Shown: piece after piece, positions 1-52,967 of the stretch | Position numbering within the stretch: position 1 is the stretch's first letter | How the letters are laid out: each line of letters starts with the position of its first letter | IMG/VR virus record: IMGVR_UViG_3300025921_000005 | Location: 1-52,967 of that record | Source of the DNA: a virus | Length of the DNA: 52,967 bases | Strand: one strand, 5' to 3' | The notes under the pieces: generated by a model | The model's input: the letters and a program-made list of their open reading frames with translations, nothing else | Told to the model about the DNA's origin: nothing | The model's database searches: none | Program-made: the position numbers and the translations under genes

Positions 1-127
1 GACGGCATCCACTTAGCGATCATCGACGAGCCCGCGGCGATGGATGACGAGCTCTTGATCTACTTGATGGACGAGGTTGTCGGGCCGCAGTTGCTTGACC
101 ACGGCGGCCACTGGGTGATGACCGGAA
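1..127. repeat. Terminal direct repeat, left copy (contig closure)
   Basis: Identical to 52841-52967. The large-terminase reading frame continues without a break from the right end into position 1, so the two copies are one locus in a circular (or circularly permuted) molecule. The length of 127 is a common maximum k-mer in short-read assemblers, so this is most simply assembly overlap, not a biological terminal repeat. Confidence 0.95.
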
Positions 128-21455: not shown

Positions 21456-22130
21456 ATGGCGCTCAATACTGTTACCTGGACGAACAAGACTCGGCTGATC
21501 CATATCGGCGACAGCGTGACCGGTCCATTCTCGACTGCGACGTCACCATTCCTGGTGGCATACCCAACCATCGCGGCCAAGTTTGGATTGCCGGCAATTC
21601 CCAATGCACTGTCGCCGTTTTTGCCGCCGGTATATAAGCGCCCTGTCCTGGGCGGGATCGACGGTCCGGCCGGGCGCGAATGCAAGACAATCGGGGTCGA
21701 CGCTGCGACGTTTCTGACGTTCACGAGGAACTACAACGGCCCCTTTACCCACGCCATCGTGCAGCTCGGCATCAACGATGCGGCGGCGATCTTGGCCGCC
21801 ACTACCACGCCAGCGGTTTGTTCTGCCTCGCAGATCTTCATCCTCGACGGCTTGAACAGCATCTTCGGGATCCCGTATTCCAACATCATGTGGATCGGTC
21901 CGTGGCAGCGCCCCGCTGACCTCTCGGTACAGGTTCCGCAGGTAGACGGAATCTTCATCGCGAACTCGCTCACATTCAACGCGTCGGGCGTCCAGCGCAA
22001 TTTCTGTTACGTGCCATGGAGCGGGCTTCTCTCGTCCGGTGGCTTGTCGATCGGAGATCAAACTCACCCGTCGGCAACGGGAGCTGCGTTGCTGGCCACG
22101 CCGGTCGTGTCGGCAGTCAATCTCGCCTGA
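21456..22130 (+). CDS. SGNH/GDSL-type hydrolase 1, 224 aa
   Basis: This is a probable esterase or deacetylase acting on host surface glycans. The family blocks are present in order: GDS (Gly18-Asp19-Ser20, nucleophile Ser20), LGIND (Gly105 and Asn107 of the oxyanion hole) and DQTH (Asp201 and His204 of the catalytic pair). It is about the usual length for single-domain members and has no signal peptide, so it is likely to be a virion-bound depolymerase, or a cytosolic enzyme less likely. It is one of a paralogous pair with 22406-23047, sharing GLNS-x-G-(IV)-PYS-x-I and (IV)GPW. ATG 21456 follows the upstream stop by one base. Confidence 0.85.
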   Translation: MALNTVTWTNKTRLIHIGDSVTGPFSTATSPFLVAYPTIAAKFGLPAIPNALSPFLPPVYKRPVLGGIDGPAGRECKTIGVDAATFLTFTRNYNGPFTHAIVQLGINDAAAILAATTTPAVCSASQIFILDGLNSIFGIPYSNIMWIGPWQRPADLSVQVPQVDGIFIANSLTFNASGVQRNFCYVPWSGLLSSGGLSIGDQTHPSATGAALLATPVVSAVNLA

Positions 22131-22142
22131 AAAGGAAACACC

Positions 22143-22409
22143 ATGGACAGAGCAAATTCAGCGCATATCGATGAAAAGACCGGGCACGAAATCCAGACGA
22201 TGCTTTCTGGCAAGACGGTAGATGTCGACGCCCTACTCGATCGCATCGGCATCAAGCACGACGCGGAGGACATGTGGAGTGCGGCGCGGTCGGCTGTGCG
22301 CGCGGAGTTGGCGCGAGACGCTGGCGCATCCGACAAAGACATCAAGGCAGCCGTCGCCGTTTATGAAGCGCGCGTCGCACGGATGGCGGCCGAGCGCCAA
22401 ACCGCATGA
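22143..22409 (+). CDS. Hypothetical helical protein, 88 aa
   Basis: ATG 22143 has an AAAGGAAA leader. The product is helical and charged (DVDALLDRIGIKHDAEDMWS, VYEARVARMAAERQTA) with no motif. It sits between the two SGNH hydrolase genes and overlaps the second by 4 bases, so it may be a chaperone or spacer co-expressed with them. Function unknown. Confidence 0.6.
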   Translation: MDRANSAHIDEKTGHEIQTMLSGKTVDVDALLDRIGIKHDAEDMWSAARSAVRAELARDAGASDKDIKAAVAVYEARVARMAAERQTA

Positions 22410-23047
22410 TCATCACCAGGTCCGAAAGGATCATGTGGATCGGCGATTCGATCAGCGCCGGTTTTGGCGCGGGGACGTGCCCGCTGCCGCTGATCGCGGG
22501 ACCGGCGATCGCGTCGTTCTACGGCACGCCGCCGGTCCCGCCGGTCACTGCGCACGTGCTTCCGCCCGCCAGAAATCGCCCAGTGATGAGTGTCGACGCC
22601 GTCGCGGGTAGGGCGTGCGCGAACATTGCCGTCGATGCGCCTACGTTCCAGGCGTTTCTGTCGCCATACCGTCAGGCATCGGCAGCGATCGTCCAGCTTG
22701 GGGTCAATGACGCGGCCAACATCTCGACCGCATCTCTCTTACTGTCGGACTTCGTACTTCAGTCGCTGATTATAGTCAACGGACTGAACAGCCTGTGGGG
22801 CGTGCCGTATTCGAAAATCCTGTGGGTCGGTCCCTGGGCGCACGATAGCGGCGACATCGCGGCGTTCATCGCGCAAGTCGAGGGAGCACTGGCGACCAAC
22901 GCGGCATCGCGCGGGTTTCAGTTGGTCAGAATGTCCAGCATTCCAAACACCGGCGGCAACTCGATCGCAGACGGTACCCACCCGACCGTTCAAGGAGCGA
23001 CGGCGCTGACCGCGCAACTCATGGGTGCGATTCAGCTTGCAGCTTGA
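22406..23047 (+). CDS. SGNH/GDSL-type hydrolase 2, 213 aa
   Basis: This is the paralogue of the 21456-22130 product. Blocks: GDS (Ser15), LGVND (Gly99, Asn101) and DGTH (Asp189, His192). ATG 22406 overlaps the previous stop. The middle region, including VNGLNSLWGVPYSKILWVGPW in the part right before the variable segment, aligns with the first copy, while the N-terminal 60 residues and the surface loops differ. That pattern fits two enzymes with related chemistry but different substrates. Position in the adhesion module suggests surface glycan deacetylation during attachment. Confidence 0.85.
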   Translation: MIITRSERIMWIGDSISAGFGAGTCPLPLIAGPAIASFYGTPPVPPVTAHVLPPARNRPVMSVDAVAGRACANIAVDAPTFQAFLSPYRQASAAIVQLGVNDAANISTASLLLSDFVLQSLIIVNGLNSLWGVPYSKILWVGPWAHDSGDIAAFIAQVEGALATNAASRGFQLVRMSSIPNTGGNSIADGTHPTVQGATALTAQLMGAIQLAA

Positions 23048-23058
23048 GGAGGTAGCAT

Positions 23059-23544
23059 GTGGCCGGCGACGAGTACATCACGCCTACTGAATTTCCCGCT
23101 TCCCCCGCCCAGGCGGCGCTCGATGACACCAATCAGCGCCTGGCGGAAGCTCTCTCACTTGGACGACGTGTGGCGCGAGACTTTGAGCGGCTTACGTCGG
23201 ATCAGCGGACTCGTGTCGCTGCTGGCCTCGCTCGAGAATATCGCCGACTCAGTCTCTCCATCGCCATCAACGCCAACGTGCTCGAAGATCTCAGCGCAGG
23301 TCGTGACCCTACGACCTGGGACGACTTCCCCGCTGTCAACGGACGAAAGGATCGACGAATGAACAAGCTCGATGGCCTTTCCGGTTTCCTGTTCACGAGT
23401 GCCGCGGCTCTTGCGGCACACGAGACATTCGGACCGATCTGGTCGAAGGTTGGCGCCGGCGCGCTCGCGCTTGCGGCCTACATCGTCGCGCGCCTGACCC
23501 CGGTCAAGGTGGCGCCGGCCCTCCCGCCCAAGAGCGTGCCCTGA
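23059..23544 (+). CDS. Holin-like protein, possible internal start, 161 aa
   Basis: GTG 23059 is 6 bases after GGAGG (23048-23052). An ATG at 23057 in another frame reads a 101-residue Ser/Pro/Arg-rich product that looks non-coding. The first 95 residues are helical and soluble, and the last 60 are hydrophobic and start at Met101 (LSGFLFTSAAALAAHETFG, GAGALALAAYIVARL). ATG 23359 there has AGGA about 7 bases upstream, so a shorter 61-residue membrane form may also be made. It heads the lysis cassette. Whether the full form or the short form is the pore-former is open. Confidence 0.55.
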   Translation: MAGDEYITPTEFPASPAQAALDDTNQRLAEALSLGRRVARDFERLTSDQRTRVAAGLAREYRRLSLSIAINANVLEDLSAGRDPTTWDDFPAVNGRKDRRMNKLDGLSGFLFTSAAALAAHETFGPIWSKVGAGALALAAYIVARLTPVKVAPALPPKSVP

Positions 23545-24006
23545 GTGCCGCGCGTCCTGGTCATAGACGACGAGCGGGACATTCGCGAGAATCTCGAGGA
23601 GATACTCGAGGCGGAGGGTTACGAGGTACGCGCCGCGGCGAACGGGCTCGACGCCTTGGCCGTCCTGCGCGACTGGGTTCCAGACGCGATCTTGCTCGAC
23701 ATCATGATGCCGCGCATGGATGGCGCCCTGTTCCGCGCGCAGCAGAAGGAGCGGCCCGAGCTCGCTGATACGGTCGTTATCGGCATCACGGCGCACCATG
23801 AGCGCGCCGAGACGGTCGACTTCGAGTGCTTGCTCAAACCGTTCGGGATGGAGGTACTTCTCTCTCGGCTGCATGAGCGCCTCGCCGAGCGCCCGAAAAA
23901 AACTCCCGTCGCGCGACTTCTTCGAAACGCCGCCATCGTAATTGGTGGGCTCGCCACGCTGGCGAAAGTGATCTGGGACCTCATCAAAGGAAGGAAGTAC
24001 CAATGA
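23545..24006 (+). CDS. Membrane-anchored CheY-like receiver domain, 153 aa
   Basis: GTG 23545 follows the previous stop directly. Residues 1-115 are a complete response-regulator receiver: VLVIDDE with Asp8-Asp9 (Mg site), Asp52 in ILLDIMMPRMDG (phospho-acceptor), Thr82 in VIGITAHH (switch) and Lys98-Pro99 in CLLKPFG. Residues about 124-147 are a hydrophobic helix (RNAAIVIGGLATLAKVIWDL) followed by basic residues. There is no DNA-binding or enzymatic output domain. It is placed between the holin-like gene and a lipoprotein gene, and its end overlaps the latter by 4 bases. A receiver on a tail anchor in a lysis cassette is not a known arrangement to me. It may sense host kinase signals to time lysis, which is inference. 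Confidence 0.85.
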   Translation: MPRVLVIDDERDIRENLEEILEAEGYEVRAAANGLDALAVLRDWVPDAILLDIMMPRMDGALFRAQQKERPELADTVVIGITAHHERAETVDFECLLKPFGMEVLLSRLHERLAERPKKTPVARLLRNAAIVIGGLATLAKVIWDLIKGRKYQ

Positions 24007-24323
24007 TGCGAGTGGTTTGGTGGATTGCGTACGTTCTGTTTCTGGTCACCGCTCTCGGATGCGCGCACGTCAAGGCGGTCGAGACCGCATGCAAGCCGGT
24101 CCCGGCGGATGTCGACACGGCTCTTACCGATCTGCAGTCCGATGGCTGGCAGGCCGCGCTGGATCAGTTAGCGATCGACAAGACCCTGTGCATCGCGCGC
24201 GCGGCCGTGCAGGAAGTGGTTGCGGCGCTATCGGGTAAGCCTCAGCTGGCTATGCCGGTCGACGCGCCAGCGAGTGCGGAGGTCGTGGCGCGCGGGAATC
24301 AGTGGCTGGCGGCGCACAAGTGA
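24003..24323 (+). CDS. Lysis-cassette lipoprotein (o-spanin-like), 106 aa
   Basis: ATG 24003 overlaps the previous stop. The N-terminus is a lipoprotein signal, MMRVVWW, a hydrophobic stretch and ALGC with Cys20. The mature part is a short helical protein with two further Cys residues (ETACKPVPADVD, KTLCIARAA). Small outer-membrane lipoproteins next to an endolysin are usually o-spanins, which help fuse the membranes at lysis. No C-terminal membrane helix is present, so a unimolecular spanin is not supported. A matching i-spanin would be the next gene, but that is unproven. Confidence 0.65.
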   Translation: MMRVVWWIAYVLFLVTALGCAHVKAVETACKPVPADVDTALTDLQSDGWQAALDQLAIDKTLCIARAAVQEVVAALSGKPQLAMPVDAPASAEVVARGNQWLAAHK

Positions 24324-24496
24324 CGCTCCAGCGGCCGCTCGACTTCCTGGTGATGTTCTTCCCGTTTTGGGCCGGCGTCCCGGTTGGCCTGTGGATTTTG
24401 AGACGTTGTAGCCTGGAGGCTTCTATGTCGCCGCCCTTCGAAAACTACGCGGACGATCTTCAGGACGATGTCGATTCGGACGCAGTGCGGCCATGA
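24320..24496 (+). CDS. One-helix membrane protein of the lysis cassette, 58 aa
   Basis: GTG 24320 overlaps the lipoprotein stop (GTGA). One transmembrane helix (residues about 8-27, LDFLVMFFPFWAGVPVGLWI) is followed by an acidic tail (ENYADDLQDDVDSD). It could be a holin, an antiholin or a short i-spanin partner. Its end overlaps the endolysin gene by 4 bases. Found by reading, being short. Confidence 0.65.
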   Translation: MTLQRPLDFLVMFFPFWAGVPVGLWILRRCSLEASMSPPFENYADDLQDDVDSDAVRP

Positions 24497-24990
24497 TCCC
24501 CGCCCCGCCCGGCCTCGCCGAGCTCGTCATTGCGAACGCGCGCCGCTATGCCACCGGCAGGAGTCTAGAGACCGACGGGCCAAACGATGGGCCCGAGATT
24601 CGCGAGTGGCTGGCCGAGCGCGGAATCACCACGCCCGCGAGCTGGTGTGCTGCTTTCGCCTGCGCGCAGGTCCACGAGGCCGCACGCGCGACGGGACTCG
24701 TCCTGACGATGCGCTACTCAGCGGGCGCGCTGCGCTTGCTCGACCTGAACCCCGATCTGGTCATCGCCGAGCCTGAGACCGGTTGCCTCGTCGTCTGGGA
24801 CCACGGCGCCGGGCTCGGCCACGTCGGCATCGTCACAGGCGTGACTCGCGTCGGCGGCGAGCTGGCCAGCATCGAGGCGATCAGTGGGAACACGAACCTC
24901 GAAGGCAGCCGCGAAGGTAACGCGGTGGTCGAGCGGGGCTTCCCGTTTCCGCAGGCGCGTCGGCTAGCCGGCTACGTTCGCGTCGCCTGA
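24493..24990 (+). CDS. CHAP-type endolysin, 165 aa
   Basis: This is a peptidoglycan amidase or endopeptidase. The CHAP triad is visible: Cys52 in ASWCAAFAC, His110 in GLGHVGIVTG and Asn133 in ISGNTN, with the usual spacing. The product is a single domain with no wall-binding part and no signal peptide, so it needs the membrane lesion made by the cassette upstream. It is about the usual length for a compact CHAP endolysin. ATG 24493 overlaps the previous stop. The last 27 bases overlap the convergent 24964-25278 gene. Confidence 0.85.
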   Translation: MIPAPPGLAELVIANARRYATGRSLETDGPNDGPEIREWLAERGITTPASWCAAFACAQVHEAARATGLVLTMRYSAGALRLLDLNPDLVIAEPETGCLVVWDHGAGLGHVGIVTGVTRVGGELASIEAISGNTNLEGSREGNAVVERGFPFPQARRLAGYVRVA

Positions 24991-30307: not shown

Positions 30308-30525
30308 CCGCCAAAGCCATCGCGCGCGCCCACGCGCTCATCGAAGCCGAGCTGACCCGAATCCCCGAGTCAGACCGCGGCGAGGTCGCCAGCCATGTGC
30401 TGGTTGCGCTGATGGGCATGTTCATGATGATCCCGCACCCGACGGCGGCCGAAGAAGACGCGACGCGGGCCGGGCTCGCCGCGCTCGACATCCCGGGGCT
30501 CATGAGCGCGCGGGGGCGGTCATGA
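30304..30525 (+). CDS. Hypothetical protein, 73 aa
   Basis: GTG 30304 overlaps the previous stop (GTGA), and the end overlaps the recombination gene by 4 bases. Mostly helical, with a Met-rich hydrophobic stretch (LVALMGMFMMIPHP) that could be a membrane-contacting helix. Unknown role. Confidence 0.6.
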   Translation: MTAKAIARAHALIEAELTRIPESDRGEVASHVLVALMGMFMMIPHPTAAEEDATRAGLAALDIPGLMSARGRS

Positions 30526-32039
30526 GCGCATCACCAGTGCCGTCAGAATCACGTCGCGTCGTCCTGATCGATCTGTCGTCGCTGTTTCATCCTGCGTGGC
30601 GCGCGAACGAGAACGGTCCGCTCAGCGTCGCGTTTCAGGGCACCGTCGACAACGTCTGGCGGTGCGCCAACATGCATCCGGGCGCGCTCGTCGCGGTTTG
30701 CATTGACTCGCGCAAGTCGTGGCGCAAGGAGTTGGCCCCGACGTACAAAGCGCAGCGCGAGAAGCTCGGCAACGACTTCTATGCGACGTTGGACCGGGTC
30801 AAGGAACGGCTCCGCGATGACGGCTTCCTGCTCTGGGGCGCCGATGGCTACGAGGCCGACGACGTCATTGCGACGGCGACCGAGGCTGCGCTGGCCATGG
30901 GGCACGAGGTCCTGATCTGCTCGGCTGACAAGGACCTTCTGCAGCTCTTGCGGCCCGGCGTGACGCAAATGCGCACGCACGATTGGTCGACATGGGACGA
31001 AGCGGCGATGGTCGCTAAGTTCGGCGTGCGGCCTGAGCAGCTCGGCGACTGGCTCGCGCTCGTCGGCGATCCGAGCGACGGCATCAAGGGTGCGCCAGAC
31101 GTCGGCGCCAAGACGGCAACCGATGTGCTCAGCCGCTTCGGTAACCTGAATGCGCTCTACGTTCAGATCAGCGCCGATCCCAAGGCTGTTGGCTCAAAGA
31201 ACAAAGGCAAAGAGGTGGCGAAGTTCGTTACGGACATCGATCTTGCCGAAGCCGACGTGCGGCTAGCGCGGAAGCTGGTCGAGCTTGACCGGAACGTGCC
31301 GTTCGACTTCCGCGAAATCTACGCGACCCGCGAAAAGAAACCGCTTGTGCAAACAGAGGAGAACGACGAGATGGACAGCGACGACATTCCGATCAGCAGG
31401 GGACCGGGCCCGCAGACCGACGCGGCGCAGACGACGCCAGCGCCCGACGTGAAGGCTGAGCGCGTAGAGGTCAAAGAGGATCCTACGCCGACGCAGGGAC
31501 AGCCGACGCAGCTGACCGTCATCCCGGCGCAGCCCGTCGAGTTCGAGCGCGCGCTGGAGCCGCGGGACCCGGGCGGTGCGGTGACGCTCGCCAAGCACCT
31601 CTTCAACTCGCGGATCTACACGAAGTTCCCGACGTGGGAATCGGTGCTTGCGACGATCATCCGCGGCCGGTCGATGGGCATCACCTCAGCGGCGGCGCTG
31701 GACGTGTTCCACATCATCGACGGCAAGCCGTATCCCTACGCCTATCTGATCATCCATCTCGCGGAGGCCGATCCCAACTGCGAGTATTTCTACCCGGTCG
31801 AAGCCTCGGCGAAGTCGGCGACGTGGGAGACGAAGCACAGGCGCAACCCGAAAGCGACGCGGGTGACGTTCACGATCGAGCAGGCCGAACTGGCCGGTTT
31901 GCTAATCAAGGAAAAGACCGGCTGGCGCAAGAACCCTGAAGACATGCTCGTCAAGTCCGCCGGGGCGAAGCTCGCGCGCCGTGTGTACCCAGGCGCGACG
32001 CTCGGCCTGATCTCGATCGAAGAGATGGGTGAGACATGA
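30522..32039 (+). CDS. Fused 5'-3' exonuclease/RecT-like annealing protein, 505 aa
   Basis: Residues about 12-270 are a flap-endonuclease/Pol-I-type 5'-3' exonuclease: Asp17 in VVLIDLSS, Asp62, Glu111-Asp113-Asp114 in GYEADDV, Asp136/Asp138 in SADKDLL, Asp183/Asp186 in GDPSDGI, then GAPDVGAKTA as helix-hairpin-helix. A Pro/Thr/Glu-rich linker (about 275-340) joins a C-terminal domain (about 345-500) whose IIRGRSMGITSAAALDVFHI, DGKPYPYAYL and GWRKNPEDML segments follow the RecT-like annealing-protein pattern. Such activities are usually separate proteins. A start signal lies at the junction (see the separate entry). Role: phage DNA recombination and repair. The exonuclease half is firm; the annealing half is family-level inference. 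Confidence 0.8.
   Translation: MSASPVPSESRRVVLIDLSSLFHPAWRANENGPLSVAFQGTVDNVWRCANMHPGALVAVCIDSRKSWRKELAPTYKAQREKLGNDFYATLDRVKERLRDDGFLLWGADGYEADDVIATATEAALAMGHEVLICSADKDLLQLLRPGVTQMRTHDWSTWDEAAMVAKFGVRPEQLGDWLALVGDPSDGIKGAPDVGAKTATDVLSRFGNLNALYVQISADPKAVGSKNKGKEVAKFVTDIDLAEADVRLARKLVELDRNVPFDFREIYATREKKPLVQTEENDEMDSDDIPISRGPGPQTDAAQTTPAPDVKAERVEVKEDPTPTQGQPTQLTVIPAQPVEFERALEPRDPGGAVTLAKHLFNSRIYTKFPTWESVLATIIRGRSMGITSAAALDVFHIIDGKPYPYAYLIIHLAEADPNCEYFYPVEASAKSATWETKHRRNPKATRVTFTIEQAELAGLLIKEKTGWRKNPEDMLVKSAGAKLARRVYPGATLGLISIEEMGET
31357..31373 (+). promoter_or_regulatory. Internal ribosome-binding site and start at the exonuclease/annealing junction
   Basis: AGGAG at 31357-31361 is followed 9 bases later by in-frame ATG 31371 (Met284). 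The site falls within the linker between the two domains, so a free 222-residue annealing protein could be made from the same message. The spacing matches the better start sites elsewhere in this genome. Confidence 0.45.
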
Positions 32040-52427: not shown

Positions 52428-52967
52428 TGGCCTTTGACGGCAACAAAGTCCGCTCGGTCGCCGCGAAGATCCGAAAGGGCACGCTGCACGCCCAGACCGC
52501 AATCCGCACGCTCTTGTTCGCCCGCCAGCAGGAGCTCTTCGACTCGGCGTTCACGAACCGCCAGACCGCGGCGCTCGCCGGACGCCGCTCGGGCAAGACC
52601 TCGACGATCCTCGCCATCATCGCGCTAGCCGGCTTCTGCGGCTGGAACGTGCTCATCGTCTACCCGAACGCGAAGCAGGCGCGATCGAAGATGCTGGGCA
52701 AGTTTGTCCGCTTGGCCAAGCTTCTCGGCTTGCGCGTTCACACAAGGATGAGCGACGGCATCGTTGAGATCGGCCGCGGAGGCGGCACGCTCGAAATTGG
52801 CTCCGCCCACACACGCGACGCCATCGACTCCATCCGCGGCGACGGCATCCACTTAGCGATCATCGACGAGCCCGCGGCGATGGATGACGAGCTCTTGATC
52901 TACTTGATGGACGAGGTTGTCGGGCCGCAGTTGCTTGACCACGGCGGCCACTGGGTGATGACCGGAA
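52427..52967 (+). CDS. terL: Terminase large subunit, N-terminal part (continues at 1-981)
   Basis: ATG 52427 overlaps the previous stop (TGATG). The P-loop of the packaging ATPase is AGRRSGKT (residues 51-58), and the adenine-contact and coupling region follows (LIVYPNAKQARSKML). Codons from 52841 on are the repeat of positions 1-127; the unique gene part here is 52427-52840, 138 codons in frame with position 1. The whole protein is 464 residues. Confidence 0.93.
   Translation, partial: MAFDGNKVRSVAAKIRKGTLHAQTAIRTLLFARQQELFDSAFTNRQTAALAGRRSGKTSTILAIIALAGFCGWNVLIVYPNAKQARSKMLGKFVRLAKLLGLRVHTRMSDGIVEIGRGGGTLEIGSAHTRDAIDSIRGDGIHLAIIDEPAAMDDELLIYLMDEVVGPQLLDHGGHWVMTG
52841..52967. repeat. Terminal direct repeat, right copy
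   Basis: Identical to positions 1-127 and in the same reading frame of terL. Should be counted once in any length or gene tally. Confidence 0.95.

Follow-up and report, generated by a model that had tools for sequence, protein, structure and literature searches.

The 52,967-nucleotide window analyzed here, which is the whole of virus record IMGVR_UViG_3300025921_000005, carries a gene for a small receiver protein in a closely packed row of genes that follows the tail module. The genes of this region are as follows.

22406..23047, plus strand: GDSL-esterase-like protein, located where the tail module ends and directly before the lysis cassette (PF00657, 3.7e-5, above the cut-off)
23059..23544, plus strand: 161-aa protein whose N-terminal part is helical and whose C terminus forms a hydrophobic hairpin, as read from the sequence
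23545..24006, plus strand: receiver protein of 153 aa, with a receiver domain (residues 1-113), a linker, and a hydrophobic helix (residues 121-150); output domain absent
24003..24323, plus strand: lipoprotein-like 106-aa protein, candidate o-spanin, with a hydrophobic N terminus ending in ALGC
24320..24496, plus strand: 58-aa protein with one TM segment (Kyte-Doolittle, 1.98), encoded between the genes for the lipoprotein-like protein and the endolysin
24493..24990, plus strand: CHAP-domain endolysin of 165 aa (PF05257, 3.7e-7, above the cut-off; PHROG endolysin, 1e-4)

The receiver reading frame extends from a GTG start at 23545 to a TGA stop at 24004-24006, and its codon usage is the best of the six frames. 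The comparison included a long antisense open reading frame at 23155-24003, which was considered as the real gene and rejected on its poorer codon fit. The product matches PF00072 with an E value of 1.2e-20 and 74.2 bits (cut-off, 30.2), and its phosphorylation site is complete (Asp8, Asp9, Asp52, Thr82, and Lys98). Approximately 40 residues lie beyond the receiver domain and comprise a hydrophobic helix without an HTH, which sets the protein apart from the DNA-binding response regulators. The gene is known from one assembly only. No close relatives of its product were found in IMG/VR, the GTDB genomes, INPHARED, or PLSDB, the matches there being generic receivers at roughly 30 to 45% identity; a candidate relative, L002, proved to be an ordinary OmpR-type regulator.

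The cassette genes abut or overlap in the order coiled-coil/TM protein, receiver, lipoprotein-like protein, TM protein, and CHAP endolysin. The receiver gene has the attributes of a lysis-cassette gene: it is co-oriented with its neighbors, its GTG directly follows the TGA that ends the preceding gene, an ATGA at 24003-24006 joins it to the lipoprotein-like gene, and the CHAP endolysin gene begins at 24493, the holin being a candidate. The original prediction had described both the 4-base overlap, which is confirmed, and a placement between a holin-like gene and the lipoprotein and CHAP endolysin genes. The position in the cassette holds, but the 161-aa upstream protein, for which no convincing Pfam, PHROG, or NCBIfam family match was found, is putatively holin- or antiholin-like as judged by hydrophobicity and position only. 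At 23542-23547 a single TGA is followed by GTG and the two genes share a frame, such that readthrough would yield a 315-aa fusion. Such a fusion is possible, but a separate receiver gene is preferred because its start matches exactly where free-standing receivers begin.

The first and last 127 bases of the record are identical (window 1-127 = 52841-52967) and the terminase gene crosses the end junction; the record is therefore a circularized, complete tailed-phage genome of 52.8 kb. The portal and capsid proteins had no match in INPHARED. In INPHARED, the CHAP endolysin comes closest to a putative endolysin endopeptidase from Myxococcus phage Mx4 (29.6% identity), which is the sole pointer to a host. 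Two successive GDSL/SGNH-esterase-like genes (21456-22130 and 22406-23047) separate the tail genes from the lysis cassette, and positions 30522-32039 encode a 505-aa protein that is apparently a fusion of a 5'-3' exonuclease and a RecT-like annealing domain. The window phage encodes one receiver genome-wide, and no HATPase_c protein, hence no histidine kinase, was found in its genome (G000); the receiver therefore lacks the cognate kinase that would make it part of a phage two-component system.

The nearest relatives of the window phage are G001 (endolysin, 83%) and G004 (capsid, 81%). Their cassettes are comparable to that of the window, with an esterase-like gene, small TM proteins, a lipoprotein-like gene, and an endolysin gene, and the lipoprotein-like protein has a homologue in G001 (34% over 90 aa; E value, 2.5e-12). 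The receiver is absent from both cassettes, its place being taken by other small genes, and is thus an accessory gene in the lineage of the window phage. That these relatives lyse without a receiver counts against a working part of the receiver in lysis.

Structure of the receiver and its tail

An AlphaFold2 model of the window receiver, built with a 15-sequence alignment, has a mean pLDDT of 87.7 and comprises a receiver fold followed, after a break, by a separate helix (residues 121-150), which speaks indirectly against burial of the hydrophobic stretch within the soluble domain. Foldseek matched the model to many solved receivers with a probability of 1.00, including RR468 (3dge_C; E value, 4e-9). 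Structure prediction thus gives the expected receiver fold and, with the coordinates and the PF00072 match, bears out the description of a 153-residue receiver without an output domain. Two segments of the protein are detailed below.

23788..23838, plus strand: shortened beta4-beta5 stretch, with Thr82 and Lys98 16 residues apart (usually 22), from the alignment and DSSP
23929..23985, plus strand: 19-residue tail segment of highest hydrophobicity (residues 129-147; Kyte-Doolittle, 1.85), with basic flanks

The beta4-beta5 stretch is six residues short, which reduces alpha4 to the only helix that DSSP assigns there, at residues 85-88, and the switch-aromatic position on beta5 is occupied by Cys95. 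The claim that every conserved receiver residue is present is therefore correct for D8, D9, D52, T82, and K98 but does not extend to alpha4 or to the switch aromatic. With alpha4 nearly absent and a cysteine at the aromatic position, the protein falls outside the canonical Y-T switching class of the OmpR/CheY type. It likewise falls outside the FATGUY class of Rec-only proteins, since the beta4 motif PFxFATG[GY] is absent and the window protein reads VVIGITAHH. Without alpha4 and the switch aromatic, the protein is a poor candidate for switching of the classical CheY type, and phosphorylation may therefore not drive the normal conformational switch. Instead of the usual alpha4-beta5-alpha5 face, the output would probably use the active-site face or pass along alpha5 to the tail helix. 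Structures without alpha4 have been described among Rec-only phosphotransfer intermediates, and a stand-alone Rec from Myxococcus, 3nhm, is one of them (PMC9981736).

The tail had been proposed to be a membrane anchor formed by a single hydrophobic helix. It is hydrophobic, separate in the model, and flanked by basic residues, and residues 129-147 have an Eisenberg H of about 0.65 and a moment of about 0.35. However, Lys141 and Asp145 lie inside the helix and make it marginal as a TM segment, and the tail could either span the membrane, as a marginal TM helix, or lie on its surface. The resemblance of this tail to a small membrane-lytic segment, together with the lack of alpha4 and Y-T switching, would suit a protein in which the receiver fold does no more than help a holin-like or anchor protein to fold or oligomerize, phosphorylation being irrelevant. 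Such a pure scaffold would not need the catalytic residues, yet D9, D52, and K98 are invariant in an alignment of 14 lysis-associated receivers, and we regard this explanation as very improbable.

Receivers beside lysis genes in other phages

A fold search of viral proteins identified the receiver of Alteromonas phage V22, and the V22 and R8W receivers were then used as queries. All Alteromonas matches listed were inspected, apart from duplicate records and close sister phages. In every Alteromonas phage among these matches the receiver lies in or beside the lysis genes, in six groups that include V22, PT15-A5, R8W, H4/4, R9Y1-3, XX1924, and PB15. A small single-TM coiled-coil protein directly precedes the receiver in all six, and the other neighbors are a GH108 or M15 endolysin, an Rz spanin, or a holin. 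In V22, the coiled-coil protein and the receiver (ORF30) are followed by an Rz-like spanin (PHROG, 7e-6), whose gene overlaps that of the receiver by 32 bp, and by a 2-TM holin-like protein; in PT15-A5 (Schitoviridae) they are followed by an Rz spanin (2.9e-8), a 2-TM protein, and an annotated endolysin. R8W and H4/4 (Autographiviridae) have a class II holin, the 1-TM coiled-coil protein, the receiver, a membrane protein, and TerS/TerL, in that order. After a TM coiled-coil protein and the receiver, R9Y1 encodes a GH108 endolysin (5e-24); after a coiled-coil TM protein and the receiver, XX1924 encodes DUF5675 and a GTA holin (1.4e-14), and PB15 encodes an M15 endolysin (2.7e-13) and a GTA holin (3e-16). 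The 161-aa helical/TM protein of the window occupies the same position as these coiled-coil proteins and is of similar build. These Alteromonas phages have part of their ancestry and a host in common and are therefore not fully independent cases. Homology is weak for several of the small membrane proteins. INPHARED matches in unannotated records such as "Listeria phage LM" and "Acinetobacter phage MD-2021a" were left out, as they look like host DNA.

A scan of IMG/VR with a degenerate DNA motif, blind to gene context, yielded at least 80 loci. In G015, a 2-TM protein, a TM coiled-coil protein, and the receiver precede a GH108 endolysin (1.2e-18). The phrog_2 terminase was uninformative on several contigs; the phage identity of G015 was settled by other terminase (8e-188) and portal families, and that of G024 is supported by tail proteins. 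G024 (IMGVR 3300042518_001860; L244, 13129-15320) encodes an SLT-like protein, a coiled-coil TM protein, the receiver, and a TM histidine kinase composed of HisKA and HATPase_c, apparently a phage-encoded two-component system within a lysis cassette. G016 has a receiver, a coiled-coil TM protein, and holin-like genes, and G014 has a TM coiled-coil protein and a receiver with a convergent M15 peptidase. Together with the Alteromonas phages, these contigs satisfy the expectation that further genomes would carry a receiver gene beside lysis genes. In G018 (IMGVR 3300032136_000007; L240, 5345-6625), overlapping genes encode, in this order, a 2-TM protein, a receiver, and a CHAT-domain (caspase-like) protein.

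We also compared neighborhoods in an uncurated IMG/VR sample consisting of the 25 stand-alone viral receivers that have a close same-strand neighbor, among the matches listed. A small membrane protein adjoins 8 of these 25 receivers, compared with 19 of 246 control open reading frames (Fisher P = 0.001). Large low-GC phages carry a further family, termed REC-TM, of NarL-type receivers that end in a TM helix and lack an HTH.

L216, 8001-8630: REC-TM gene
L218, 8001-8630: REC-TM gene
L219, 8001-8666: REC-TM gene
L220, 7983-8837: REC-TM gene

A TM coiled-coil gene adjoins three of the four, a small lipoprotein gene lies upstream in three, and in L218 a PG-binding endolysin-like gene is found about 1.2 kb downstream. 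The tie of this family to lysis is less certain.

Descent of the lysis-associated receivers

In a tree of 186 receiver domains, in which branch support is limited by the length of about 110 residues, the lysis-associated receivers fall in several separate lineages. V22 groups with PT15-A5, R8W and H4/4 group with G014, and the REC-TM family forms its own group, while the window receiver, G015, G024, G016, and G018 stand apart. The R8W and H4/4 receivers are under purifying selection (dN, 0.043; dS, 0.271).

Late operons with lysis cassettes also gather unrelated cargo, and position alone is therefore no proof of function. The receivers might be signaling genes taken from hosts (morons or auxiliary metabolic genes) that act elsewhere in the cell, for which the slot near the lysis genes is merely a site of the late transcript where insertion is tolerated. 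The nearest relatives of the window phage, with other small genes in that slot, would fit such a history, and auxiliary metabolic genes is also what the receivers of V22 and R8W have been called in print (PMC7289586 and PMC8228385). Under this explanation, however, separate lineages must each have picked a slot that is tightly overlapped at either end and has the same TM coiled-coil neighbor, and the enrichment beside small membrane proteins among the matches listed would be left unaccounted for. We therefore consider cargo improbable. The explanation that we advance tentatively, as its chances fall a little short of even, is that phospho-receivers have been recruited repeatedly and largely independently as a standard lysis-cassette part together with a TM coiled-coil protein, and that host histidine-kinase signaling gates lysis. 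Within that reading, and with the same reservation applying to both together, the window phage would be the version whose receiver bears its own membrane helix.

DISCUSSION

The timing of lysis by the holin clock is well understood, and inputs from host physiology are little known. The present observations suggest that some phages link the timing of lysis, or the accompanying envelope stress, to host signaling. For the window phage, we hypothesize that the receiver is a membrane-attached, phosphorylatable component of the lysis cassette that tunes lysis to a host phosphorylation signal, a proposal whose chances we judge to be evenly balanced. The receiver would cooperate with the adjacent small membrane proteins (holin/antiholin-like and spanin-like). 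Asp52 may be phosphorylated by a host histidine kinase, a phosphotransferase, or acetyl phosphate, and the phosphorylated and unphosphorylated forms might contact a neighboring membrane protein differently. The changed contact could then shift holin triggering or spanin action, and the onset or progress of lysis would thereby depend on the host phosphorylation signal. The original prediction had offered a similar interpretation, of which the receiver, the hydrophobic tail, and the position in the cassette are observed; the functional part, phosphorylation-controlled lysis timing, is what we infer from them.

The main rival to lysis control is that the protein is a phosphoryl sink, a late, membrane-held receiver that drains a host kinase or phosphorelay, for example one for envelope stress that would react to damage by the endolysin and holin, and blunts the response while leaving the lysis proteins untouched. 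A decoy of this kind would be expected to have an intact phosphorylation site, no output domain, and no kinase of the phage's own, as is the case here; the lost alpha4 and switch aromatic fit Rec-only phosphotransfer intermediates (PMC9981736), membrane attachment would place the receiver near sensor kinases, and the timing of envelope damage would account for coexpression with the lysis genes. Alone, however, it explains neither the constant TM coiled-coil neighbor nor G024, in which a phage kinase lies beside its own receiver. These two features favor a dedicated signaling role in the cassette, and we consider the decoy unlikely.

If lysis control is correct, the receivers would represent a previously undescribed class of lysis regulator. 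Unrelated phages, some of them isolated on culturable Alteromonas, carry a receiver at their lysis genes, which provides a direct and testable route for an input from host physiology, and genes filed as "PhoB," "CheY-like," or auxiliary metabolic could be reread as likely parts of lysis or of an envelope response. Receivers in phages are already known. The window protein belongs, as a variant, to a known domain family, and its use as a lysis-cassette part is, as far as could be tested, undescribed. Our literature search, which covered work other than subscription journals and preprints, found no paper linking a receiver to phage lysis, and within that literature the original statement that no phage lysis gene of this form has been described holds, two such receivers having been published as auxiliary metabolic genes. 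PMC7824862 was considered as a precedent and set aside, since its divergent cREC domain is tied to NAD/cyclic-nucleotide systems in a different arrangement.

Among known systems, the antiholins and holin regulators (T4 RI and RIII, lambda S107, and PBSX XhlA) are small lysis-cassette proteins that modulate holin triggering at the membrane. To our knowledge, neither a receiver domain nor an input by phosphorylation has been described for any of them. The window protein shares a single receiver domain and the five catalytic residues with stand-alone receivers of the CheY, Spo0F, DivK, and CpdR type, but differs from stand-alone receivers in its phage lysis cassette, its hydrophobic C-terminal helix, and the ITAHH that replaces the FATGUY motif. 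A weak or missing alpha4 is common to it and to the alpha4-less Rec-only proteins SdrG, Sma0114, and 3nhm (PMC9981736). V22 CDS-30 (PMC7289586) and R8W g48, published as "PhoB" (PMC8228385) although it has no DNA-binding domain, resemble the window protein as stand-alone receivers of 149 to 153 aa in the late region, between a TM coiled-coil gene and spanin-like or other membrane genes; they differ from it in their overall identity of about 20 to 25% and in having no hydrophobic tail. The REC-TM family (L216 and L218-L220) shares with the window protein the receiver, the C-terminal TM helix, the absence of an output domain, and, in three of four cases, a TM coiled-coil neighbor, but is NarL-type, has a clear TM helix, and belongs to a separate lineage.
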